A DNA stretch of 32,107 nucleotides from Methanobacteriota archaeon (GTDB lineage: Archaea; Thermoplasmatota; Poseidoniia; Poseidoniales; Thalassarchaeaceae). The notes beneath the pieces are model-generated. The model saw only the letters and a program-made list of their open reading frames with translations, did no database searches and was not told where the DNA came from. A program made the translations under genes and the position numbers. Location of the stretch: the NCBI GenBank assembly GCA_002698225.1, contig NZWD01000042.1, positions 1-32,107 on the forward strand, in the 5' to 3' direction. Shown here piece after piece: positions 15,201 through 19,534 of the stretch; the first letter of the stretch is position 1, and every line of letters begins with the position of its first letter.

Positions 15201-16385
15201 ATGCTAGGCGATAACATGGGTGACGATGACACACTTTTCACAATCACTGAAGATAATCTGGACTCCGGCCTCCGAGGAATCCCTGTCGGGACATGCAAAA
15301 CCTCCTTCGTAGACCCAATCGAAGGCGTGCATTATGTGGGCTATCCAATCGGTGACCTCGCTAATCTTGAGGAGGAGGATGTAATCTATCTCCTGATGAA
15401 CAAGAGACTTCCGAACGAAGATGAATCAGCGGCTTTTCGAGCAGAACTCGCCCACCGCGCAGAGGAGATGCCAACAGGGGCACTCAGAGTACTGGAGTCG
15501 TTGACTCCGGGTAGTGGCCACCCTATGGATTGGCTAGCAATCGGCATCATGGCCCTAGGGGCTGCTGACTCTACAGGAGACTCTCGCTCGGGTTCGATGA
15601 ATCTGATTGCCCGTATGCCTGAGTTGATGGCGAGACTATTCCTGCTGCGTGGCGGCAAGTCAGAAGAACTCAGACCACGCAAACCCGAGTTGGGCCTAGT
15701 GGAGAACTTCGTCCATATGCTCGGCGTCGAGGGCGAGGAAGCTGAGAGGATGGAACGCGTCCTGAGATTCTTCTTCATACTGCACATGGATCATGGAGGA
15801 GGAAATCTCTCAACATTCTCAGGCAAAGCAGTCGCTTCAGGCCGAGCCTCGATTTACGCATCGATCGCCAGCGCGATGAATGCGTTGTCTGGCCCGCTGC
15901 ACGGCCGAGCAAACCAGGCTTGCCTAGAGTTCGTCCAGCGTATTGGGACATCAGACCCAGCAGAGATTGAGGAATTCGTCCGATCAGAATTGGCGGCTCG
16001 CCGACCAATCTATGGCTTCGGGCATGGAGTCCTCAGGGCTGAGGACCCTCGAGCGCGTTTACTAATCGAACTTGGCTCCGAGATTTGTCCCGATGACGAG
16101 AATTACAAGATCGTGACAGCCCTGAGAGAAGTAGTCCCACCCATCCTCAAGGAAATTCCAAAAATCAGCAACCCGTATCCGAATGTGGACATAGCAAGTG
16201 GTAGCCTGCTGCATTCAGTCGGCTTCCGAAAGCCCGACTACTACACCACCTTCTTCGGGTGGGCCCGAGTTGCTGGAATCTGCGCCCAGATTCTGGATGA
16301 GAGAAGCGCTAGAGGAGGTAGAGGAACTCCAATCTATCGACCGAAGTACATTCCTCGTGAACAACCGCACCAGCGTTTAGAGTAG
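15201..16385 (+). CDS. gltA: Citrate synthase
   Basis: Catalytic regions: ALSGPLHGRANQ, YGFGHGVLRAEDPR, NPYPNVDIASGSLLHSVGF. Alternative ATG at 15216. Confidence 0.93.
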   Translation: MLGDNMGDDDTLFTITEDNLDSGLRGIPVGTCKTSFVDPIEGVHYVGYPIGDLANLEEEDVIYLLMNKRLPNEDESAAFRAELAHRAEEMPTGALRVLESLTPGSGHPMDWLAIGIMALGAADSTGDSRSGSMNLIARMPELMARLFLLRGGKSEELRPRKPELGLVENFVHMLGVEGEEAERMERVLRFFFILHMDHGGGNLSTFSGKAVASGRASIYASIASAMNALSGPLHGRANQACLEFVQRIGTSDPAEIEEFVRSELAARRPIYGFGHGVLRAEDPRARLLIELGSEICPDDENYKIVTALREVVPPILKEIPKISNPYPNVDIASGSLLHSVGFRKPDYYTTFFGWARVAGICAQILDERSARGGRGTPIYRPKYIPREQPHQRLE

Positions 16386-17504
16386 TCAAACGGTGCCATA
16401 GGTCTTTCCGGAACCTCTGTGACCTATTATCCTGCATGCCTCCCAAGGCATGCTTGATCCGTTCGATTCGGATATCAGAGTGTCAATATCTCTCTCCCAC
16501 ATCCACTTCTTCCTCCAGTTTTCGAGAAACTGCTTCTTCTCTGGAATGGATAGCTCCGGCCACGGCGAGACATCCTGCTGCAACTCTGCAATCACTGACG
16601 CATGATGTTCAGGTAATGCCGAGTCTAATTTGTTCTGATGCTCCGCACCTAGGGGTTGGGTGGCAGGTCTCAACCACCTAGCCTCTCCTGTAGGTAATGT
16701 AGTGACTTCGGGAGATAATTCATCCGAGATTGCAGTCAAGCCAGCTTCTAGTAGGGCTCGCTCAACTCGGAGTTTTGCCGGCCAGACATATACTGGGAAA
16801 CCCCTCCTCTTTCGGGTTAGGTTTGTCAGTTGCTTGCCTTGCAATCCCATTGTGGTGCCGATGGTCAGGTGCCGCTTCGCTCCGTCAAGATAGTCGAGAG
16901 CCGCTGGAAGCATCGGGGCGCCCACATTTCGTTGCAGACGCATAAGCATGGGCAGAGATAGGCCGATGAAGTAGGGGGAAGCGAACACTCTCTTGACGAA
17001 ACTGCTCCCCCACGGTCTGAGGTATGGCACCAATCTAGCGAAGCGCAGCTTACTGGTTGTCCTCTTCGCGGCTTTGAGGAGTTTAGGCTCGAACGAGTAG
17101 ACCACGGTGCCGGACTCACCTATATCCAGAGGCTCCAATGCTTCGTCGACCAGTTCGATCATCTTGCGCATGTGCTCGGTTCTAGCCTCTCCTGACATCA
17201 ACCAACCAGTCTTTCCGCTACTAGGGTGAGGGGTCTTGAGCTCGATACACGCAAACCTCCCTCCTTCCAGCCAAGGCTCGGTAAAACCAGGCTCAGATAG
17301 CATCTCGTCCAATGTACACACATATTCAGGCATGGAGGATGAATCCTCGCATTCGGGAAACCTCCCGTCTGCTGTCCTCGTATCATGAAATGCTACTAAT
17401 TCGTCATCGGCAGATAGCCTAAGGTCCAACTCAACTCCGTCGGAGATTTGCATCCCATGGACAAGAGCAGCGAGCGAGTTCTCAGGGGGCTGCTCCCATG
17501 CCAT
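16386..17504 (-). CDS. Glycerophosphodiester phosphodiesterase (GDPD) family protein with C-terminally placed HRG motif (apparent circular permutation)
   Basis: N-terminus MAWEQPPENSLAALVHG...GVELDLRLSADDELVAFHD, IELKTP, VYVWPAK...GLTAISDELSPE; extreme C-terminus RIIGHRGSGKTYGTV-stop. Start taken at ATG 17504; upstream GTG 17510/17513 possible. Confidence 0.82.
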   Translation of the reverse strand: MAWEQPPENSLAALVHGMQISDGVELDLRLSADDELVAFHDTRTADGRFPECEDSSSMPEYVCTLDEMLSEPGFTEPWLEGGRFACIELKTPHPSSGKTGWLMSGEARTEHMRKMIELVDEALEPLDIGESGTVVYSFEPKLLKAAKRTTSKLRFARLVPYLRPWGSSFVKRVFASPYFIGLSLPMLMRLQRNVGAPMLPAALDYLDGAKRHLTIGTTMGLQGKQLTNLTRKRRGFPVYVWPAKLRVERALLEAGLTAISDELSPEVTTLPTGEARWLRPATQPLGAEHQNKLDSALPEHHASVIAELQQDVSPWPELSIPEKKQFLENWRKKWMWERDIDTLISESNGSSMPWEACRIIGHRGSGKTYGTV

Positions 17505-17608
17505 GGGCACCACGAGGCGTATCAAGTCCAATAATGCACGGACGAAGCCCTTTCTCAGCAGCCCCAATGCTCAAACCCTTGTTCTTCCACCGCACCGTAG
17601 GTATAACC

Positions 17609-19534
17609 ATGTCAGAGTTAGTTGAATTGGACCGCGCATCAGATCCACAAGCAGTCAAAGGGTATGCATTCTATGATTGGGGAAAGTCAGCATTTGAGAC
17701 TAGTGTAACCGTTGCTATTCTTCCGGCATGGTACGCATATTTGTTCCTCGAGGCGAACGGACTCACAACTACGCTGGGTTCAATCGAGATGACTGGCGAT
17801 GCATTGTGGTCTTATGCAGTGGCCGCCGCGGCATTAGTGGTAGCAGTATTATCTCCTGCATTTGGAGTGGTCGCCGATAAGCGTCCAATCAAGATGTGGT
17901 GGCTCAGGACCCTGACATACATCGGGGCGGGAGCAACTTTCCTAATCGGATTTGATTTCCTGTTGGGTGGCTCGGAATGGGTCTGGCTGATGGTTTTCTT
18001 TATCCTCGCAAATGTGGGTCTGAATGGAGCGGGCGTGTTCTATAATGCCCTTCTGCCGCATATGGGTACTGATGATGAGATGGATGATATCTCAAACCGA
18101 GCCTTCGCCTACGGTTACATCGGAGGAGGAATACTCCTGCTCGTACATTTCATCCTAGTCTTGGGTGTAGGAGGAGATTTCGTCATTAGGATGTGCTTGG
18201 CTTCTGCCGGAGTTTGGTGGTACGGTTTCGCACTTCTGACCTTCAAGTATGTTCCAGAGCCGCCTATTGAGGGCGAAGAGGAATACATCGACTTGAAATC
18301 AGCTTACAAGCAGGTATTCCAGACTCTGAAGGAAGTTAGTAAATTCCGAACTCTCTTCATCTACATGCTAGCCTATTTCTTCTTCATCGATGGGATCAAC
18401 AGCGTCACAGCCTTGGGTGGGGTTTTCGGCGCCACTGTTCTCGGAATCAGCACTACAGAGTTGATGATTACCATCCTAGCAATTCAGTTTGTTGCTTGGC
18501 CAAGCGCACTATACTTCACCAAACTATCCGCCAAGTGGGGAACTAAGCAGGCCCTGACATTCTCATTGGTCGGTTGGGTCATTTTGTGTTTTGCTGCTCT
18601 TGCCTTCGCACCTCTTGCCCTAGACTCTCACGAACAGTACGATGTGCTGGTAGAATGGGACTACAATGACGATGGCACTCCAGACTCAGAAAACTGGGAC
18701 GGCGACTGGTTCACCAACGACGAGGAGGCTGCAGCAGGTACCGATCCTCTAGATTACAATGATAACCCATCTGACCTGCCTCAGACATGGCTCCAACAGA
18801 GGCTGAGTTCAAGCGGTTCCTATGTCGTCTATGTCAACTGGAATGCTCATGAGATAGCTCAGAAGGCGGATTTCTCAGATACTCAGTTCGACGAGCAGGG
18901 ATGGGCGACTACATTCTCCGCGACTCTGCCTGTGGAGATCGACAATAGGAGTGGACTGTATGGGTGGACTTGGGGTGAGGCCGAGAATGAACCTCACTTC
19001 GTATCCGGAGTCAGTGCTGAGCAAGTTCAATCCCTGCTAGACTCAATGGCTGGCTCAAGATTCAGTGCCAGTGTTGCTGGAGGTCCACTGGACTCATCCT
19101 CGGCCTTGGGAATTGATCACCCGACTAATTTGGGAGACGGCCCTATAGATGTAATTCCAGATACTGCTAGGAAGGTAGTCTGGGGCCCTCTCGGACTCTC
19201 TGTTGGCCTCCAGTTCTTGCTTCTAGGATGCGGTATGGGAACCCTTCTGGGTGGCTCACAGGGCCTGTCTAGGAGTATGTTCGGACAAATGGTACCAGAA
19301 ACTCGCAGTGCTGAGTTCTTCGGCTTCTTCGGCTTCTTCGGCAAGGTCGCCGCTCTAATCGGACCATTGCTGTACGCAACCCTGACTGTGATGTACGACA
19401 GCAGAGTTGGAGTACTCAGTATCTCCATGCTAATTCTGATTGGAGCATATATGATGCGAATGGTCGATGTCGAGGATGGCAGAGCTGCAGCTAGGGCTGA
19501 GGACGCAAGGAATAGAGGAATCAGCCTCGACTAG
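17609..19534 (+). CDS. MFS transporter, UMF1/Atg22-like, with large extramembrane insertion containing a DxDxDG motif
   Basis: GYAFYDWGKSAFETSVTVAILPAWYAYLF, AYGYIGGGILLL, AEFFGFFGFFGKVAALIGPLLYA; ATG 17609 (MSELVELD) preferred over the track start at 17498. Confidence 0.88.
   Translation: MSELVELDRASDPQAVKGYAFYDWGKSAFETSVTVAILPAWYAYLFLEANGLTTTLGSIEMTGDALWSYAVAAAALVVAVLSPAFGVVADKRPIKMWWLRTLTYIGAGATFLIGFDFLLGGSEWVWLMVFFILANVGLNGAGVFYNALLPHMGTDDEMDDISNRAFAYGYIGGGILLLVHFILVLGVGGDFVIRMCLASAGVWWYGFALLTFKYVPEPPIEGEEEYIDLKSAYKQVFQTLKEVSKFRTLFIYMLAYFFFIDGINSVTALGGVFGATVLGISTTELMITILAIQFVAWPSALYFTKLSAKWGTKQALTFSLVGWVILCFAALAFAPLALDSHEQYDVLVEWDYNDDGTPDSENWDGDWFTNDEEAAAGTDPLDYNDNPSDLPQTWLQQRLSSSGSYVVYVNWNAHEIAQKADFSDTQFDEQGWATTFSATLPVEIDNRSGLYGWTWGEAENEPHFVSGVSAEQVQSLLDSMAGSRFSASVAGGPLDSSSALGIDHPTNLGDGPIDVIPDTARKVVWGPLGLSVGLQFLLLGCGMGTLLGGSQGLSRSMFGQMVPETRSAEFFGFFGFFGKVAALIGPLLYATLTVMYDSRVGVLSISMLILIGAYMMRMVDVEDGRAAARAEDARNRGISLD

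Follow-up and report, generated by a model that had tools for sequence, protein, structure and literature searches.

A GDPD homolog of Poseidoniales with its HRG motif at the C-terminus: a probable natural circular permutant of the TIM barrel

How is a protein to be understood that begins at one catalytic motif of the GDPD family and ends at the motif expected to precede it? The window, by which we mean the whole stretch of DNA analysed (32,107 nucleotides, contig NZWD01000042.1 of GenBank assembly GCA_002698225.1, from an archaeon of the order Poseidoniales), contains such a gene (Table 1). Its product, read from 17504 to 16386 on the reverse strand, is an intact open reading frame that opens with MAWEQPPENS (MAWEQPPENSLAALVHGMQISDGVELDLRLSADDELVAFHD) and closes with RIIGHRGSGKTYGTV (PWEACRIIGHRGSGKTYGTV). 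The sole longer in-frame start, a TTG at 17567, would lengthen the product by 21 residues (LGLLRKGFVRALLDLIRLVVP) that lack HRG and show no conservation among orthologs, several of which have a stop codon directly or a few codons 5' of the MxWEQPPENS or MxWxQP start. The preliminary description of this sequence was thus exact in its coordinates, start and end, in placing HRG at 16413-16421 and in reporting none upstream in frame; the helical-looking linker that it put at about 75-90 residues measures about 84 in the window protein.

Table 1. Coordinates of the gene, its motifs and its neighbours in the window
Feature	Position	Strand	Remarks
Citrate synthase gene, convergent, abutting the GDPD stop	15201..16385	(+)	Pfam PF00285; conserved neighbour in the order
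Permuted GDPD gene	16386..17504	(-)	372 aa; ATG at 17504, stop at 16388-16386; ortholog N-termini at the same point
Putative relocated beta1 strand, MPWEACRIIGHRGSGKTYGTV, residues 352-372	16389..16451	(-)	hhalign columns 362-372 to canonical 9-19; HRG 74/74
Catalytic HRG, H362 R363 G364	16413..16421	(-)	74/74 orthologs
Linker from old C-terminus to old N-terminus, residues 264-351, mostly helical	16452..16715	(-)	AlphaFold helices 287-345
Last barrel strands, residues 233-263 (GFPVYVWP...AISDEL)	16716..16808	(-)	hhalign to canonical GDPD 200-232
ExK strand, E88-L-K90	17235..17243	(-)	E88, K90 59/59
E25/D27 (ELD) metal site to H40-D41 (HD): beta2 and start of GDPD insert	17382..17432	(-)	E25, D27, H40 invariant; Pfam profile 9-47
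PEN motif, residues 7-9, second half of GDPD beta1-alpha1 loop, now N-terminal	17478..17486	(-)	N9 59/59, E8 nearly invariant
ATG22/MFS-like transporter gene, divergent	17609..19534	(+)	Pfam PF11700; neighbour in many orthologous loci

GDPD (PF03009) is the sole Pfam match of the window reading frame, scored in its TTG-extended form, at 29.8 bits against a cut-off of 23.6; orthologs score up to 54 bits, and the NCBIfam score of the permuted protein falls far under the cut-off. The native match of the window protein opens at position 9 of the PF03009 profile, past the HRG with which the profile begins. At about 370 residues the protein is also larger than the 250 of the GDPD family. Ten of its residues, N9, E25, D27, H40, E88, K90, D261, H362, R363 and G364, show no variation in 59 orthologs, and they map to the PEN, ExD, HD, ExK, barrel-end Asp and HRG of GDPDs; the E/D/H ligand motifs described as kept are indeed so, E25, D27, H40 and E88 being invariant in 59/59. 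All the motif residues of the family are therefore present, but the linear order HRG-PEN-ExD-HD-ExK is broken, HRG coming after the last barrel strand. Since the canonical order is universal in the GDPDs seen outside Poseidoniales, we file the window protein as a permuted homolog rather than an ordinary member: it is, by its sequence, a GDPD homolog that has every residue feature tested and departs from the family in their order.

The gene ends are a property of the family as a whole. A contig scan yielded ten orthologs in assemblies of Marine Group II Euryarchaeota, at 43-85% identity, all with a common start point and an ending of the form PWE..R(I/L)(I/L/V)GHRG; none of the ten has HRG upstream of the start in any frame. 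The permuted gene is present in 188 of the 195 sampled genomes of Poseidoniales / Marine Group II, in 21/21 genera. Among 74 distinct ortholog sequences extracted from fetched loci, HRG lies 2-15 residues before the C-terminus in every one and at the N-terminus in none (0/74), and H, R and G are all retained down to about 34% identity. The codons for these residues turn over, His being CAC or CAT (32/42), Arg using all six of its codons and Gly all four: residues fixed while codons vary freely point to selection on the protein, not the DNA. The C-terminal GHRG is, from this pattern, no chance event.

These data also bear on whether an assembly error, frameshift or pseudogene masks a normal N-terminal HRG in the window, where an alternative upstream frame does carry a loosely GDPD-like stretch, GLDTPRGAHGMGAAP, just before the ENS point. 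Against this stand the in-frame stop right before the start in some orthologs, the lack of any upstream HRG in the ten orthologs of the contig scan, and the same gene ends in many genera, across dozens of assemblies made independently; close relatives with an N-terminal HRG, which the preliminary description had named as a refuting result that would imply misassembly or local rearrangement, were sought within the order without success. The probability of a hidden N-terminus is next to nil, and we have rejected it. Two orthologs (G067:C5:199641-200741 and G120:C229:7224-8327) have one in-frame TGA within the matched stretch, a sequencing error or a pseudogene.

A second way of discounting the tail is to read GHRGSGKT as a Walker A P-loop (GxxxxGK[ST]) that binds nucleotide, its likeness to HRG being coincidental. 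The pattern fits exactly in the window tail and in 43/74 orthologs, but its Lys is found in only 56/74, whereas H and R, which Walker A leaves free, are found in all. The chain moreover ends so soon after HRG that there is no room for a P-loop fold, the C-terminal 88 residues match no Pfam family, and the GDPD site is otherwise complete, missing exactly an HRG motif. With its signature lysine variable and no space for the fold, P-loop NTPase identity was discarded as extremely improbable.

If HRG has been relocated by circular permutation, the protein should align with canonical GDPDs in cyclic order. A family profile built from 31 diverse orthologs matched GDPDs in a PDB profile search (best 2pz0, E=1.7e-13), and was compared with canonical GDPDs of about 230-300 residues from other members of the phylum, which have HRG or HKG at the N-terminus. 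With hhalign, family positions 5-168 align to canonical 21-161 (E 8e-20); positions 239-269 align to 200-232 and positions 362-372 to 9-19, each weak by itself, the isolated tail having a probability of 24%; residues 169-238 align poorly. Only a circular permutation puts the three segments in line. The canonical phylum GDPDs were matched either at the N-terminus by the family tail (353-371) or, further along, by the head (4-95).

Shuffled-tail runs served as the control for the weakness of the last two segments. With the tail placed first, the profile score rose from 142.9 to 164.3 and the alignment reached canonical position 9, while shuffling the tail columns (n=200) gave a mean of 143.9 and a maximum of 153.8. 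Four rotated orthologs gained a Pfam match from profile position 1, at +2 to +6 bits relative to a scrambled tail; for the N-terminal 270 residues of one ortholog (L121) the GDPD match covers positions 9-237 of 244 in native order and 1-237 of 244 when rotated. For symmetric folds, permutation is accepted where similarity rises on permuting (PMC2395249), and the gain on rotation is such a rise. The proposal that the motif was relocated by circular permutation is borne out by the cyclic-order alignment, by the gain over shuffles obtained with the rotated sequence, as the preliminary description had suggested trying, and by the agreement of the orthologs. At the level of sequence we consider circular permutation almost certain.

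What this would mean for the fold can be set out as follows. A GDPD/PF03009 barrel would have been permuted once, presumably by the usual route of duplication then trimming. The new N- and C-termini would lie where the active site opens, between HRG and PEN, in a beta1-alpha1 loop that is only about six residues long in the canonical proteins aligned by hhalign. The original termini, on the bottom side of the barrel, would be connected by a linker that varies among orthologs and is helical for the most part. In the folded protein, the barrel would be completed by the C-terminal strand as beta1, and His362 and Arg363 would thereby adjoin E25/D27, H40 and E88, restoring a metal-dependent active site able, we infer, to cleave glycerophosphodiesters. 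We regard this whole reading, a fixed natural circular permutant of the GDPD TIM barrel whose ends lie in the beta1-alpha1 catalytic loop, as highly probable.

The relocated block itself comprises only about 15-20 residues. The part that joins it to the barrel varies in length: in a survey of the family, HRG follows the last barrel Asp at a distance of 60-107 residues. Two residues of the linker, W315 and W336, are nearly invariant, and it is shortened in some genera. Two members of one genus (L126 and L070; genus g15, family f2) have a linker of about 60 residues in which most of the Trp-rich helices are lost and GHRG is retained, from which the linker appears to act as a bridge and HRG to be the constrained part.

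AlphaFold models made from 11-sequence alignments, with the window protein or L011 first, have mean pLDDT values of 56 and 59. The N-terminal half is well modelled, and the window model matches GDPDs in Foldseek; the linker is predicted as helical with moderate confidence; the second half is mostly below pLDDT 50, as are the last 16-19 residues in both models, so that the seat of the last strand in the barrel is deduced rather than modelled. The unplaced tail, together with the long and variable linker, would also suit an arrangement in which the HRG strand completes the barrel of a neighbouring subunit, as a domain swap or intertwined dimer, and sequence alone does not separate cis from trans. 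In a TIM barrel, however, the two original ends lie on the same face, so the cyclic order offers a simple solution in cis. Donation of the C-terminal strand in cis as beta1 is, in our judgement, very likely, and the domain swap has little probability. Scarcely more probable is that the HRG strand joins late or can be exchanged, docking last, in cis or in trans, on a barrel that folds without it and so acting as a switch of activity.

The chemistry can be approached through LpgD of S. aureus (PMC10404611, 8ghh), work on which credits the metal cluster and the pair of GDPD histidines with forming, then hydrolysing, a cyclic phosphate intermediate. LpgD has the GDPD TIM barrel, the two catalytic histidines (one in HRG, one in the insert) and the metal cluster that are predicted for the permuted protein as well; it differs in having the canonical strand order, a membrane anchor and a lysophospholipid as substrate. 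Assigned by motif, H362 in the tail would correspond to LpgD His51 and H40 to His93. GDPD-type catalysis is accordingly a likely prediction, and the absence of an N-terminal extension suggests a cytosolic enzyme. It is conceivable, though rather unlikely, that the permuted fold was kept while its substrate or activity changed, for example to a lysophospholipase D-like or ether-lipid-specific one: region 169-238 is lineage-specific, as is the linker, the free termini are now at the active-site mouth, and GDPD-fold enzymes with other substrates exist, LpgD being one, but the canonical catalytic and metal residues are all invariant.

The distribution of the permuted form is sharply bounded. In a sample of 297 genomes of the phylum, full-length matches were confined to Poseidoniales, matches elsewhere being to the PEN-HD region of ordinary GDPDs; outside the order only GDPDs of canonical order were seen, among them those of the other family in this class. 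Relatives sought in viral contigs by scanning and in plasmids and phages by tblastn were not found. Within the order, GDPD lies tail-to-tail with citrate synthase in 24/24 loci examined, from both families, and this synteny, in which the ATG22-like gene often takes part, indicates one ancestral locus. A canonical precursor beside citrate synthase was sought in that other family, where no neighbour of the window gene adjoins a GDPD. The permuted form in the order and the canonical one in the other family fit a single permutation on the Poseidoniales stem, which would have taken place before the two families of Poseidoniales diverged. The transporter at 17609-19534 has, after its membrane part, a weak match to TSP3-type calcium-binding repeats, below the cut-off.

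Most of 117 genomes surveyed in the order have no GDPD other than the permuted protein and a paralog of about 200 residues. The latter, seen in many genomes of family f1 (L118/G058, L119/G048, L120/G103), has canonical order, GHRLGASG...ENT in place of HRG and a conserved KPKWLF(G/F)L C-terminus, and seems to make up roughly half a barrel. An ordinary, N-terminally anchored GDPD of about 320 residues occurs in two genomes that belong to one genus (L122/G073 and L123/G030), and a third genome of the order has a fragment of one. In G030 the permuted gene was not found; the ordinary GDPD has possibly replaced it, or the assembly has a gap.

To our knowledge, catalytic TIM barrels offer few documented cases of natural circular permutation. 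Transaldolase B and class I aldolase (PMC2213659) are homologous TIM barrels related by a natural circular permutation and recognised, as here, by alignment after rotation, although the enzymes are others and the shift is of two beta/alpha units. The TIM-barrel pair 1YAD and 2DUA (CPSARST, PMC2395249) was likewise accepted as a permutation of a symmetric fold by its gain in similarity on rotation; again the enzymes differ, and that was a pairwise structural finding whereas ours concerns an order-wide family. A search of the open-access literature for GDPD together with circular permutation found no relevant paper. Relative to the GDPD family itself (PF03009; T. tengcongensis 2pz0, UgpQ-type 2otd, P. 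furiosus 7e0v), the order PEN, ExD, HD, ExK, barrel end is common to both, and the permuted protein is distinguished by its C-terminal HRG and the extra residues before it.

The cut thus lies inside a short loop bearing two catalytic motifs, yet it has become fixed throughout an order of archaea that abounds in the ocean. Family models with rules of motif order under-read such real enzymes, as the late start of the Pfam match and the low NCBIfam score illustrate. Canonical and permuted GDPDs form a natural pair for studies of folding and active-site assembly, and the rearrangement, probably a single one, marks the Poseidoniales.
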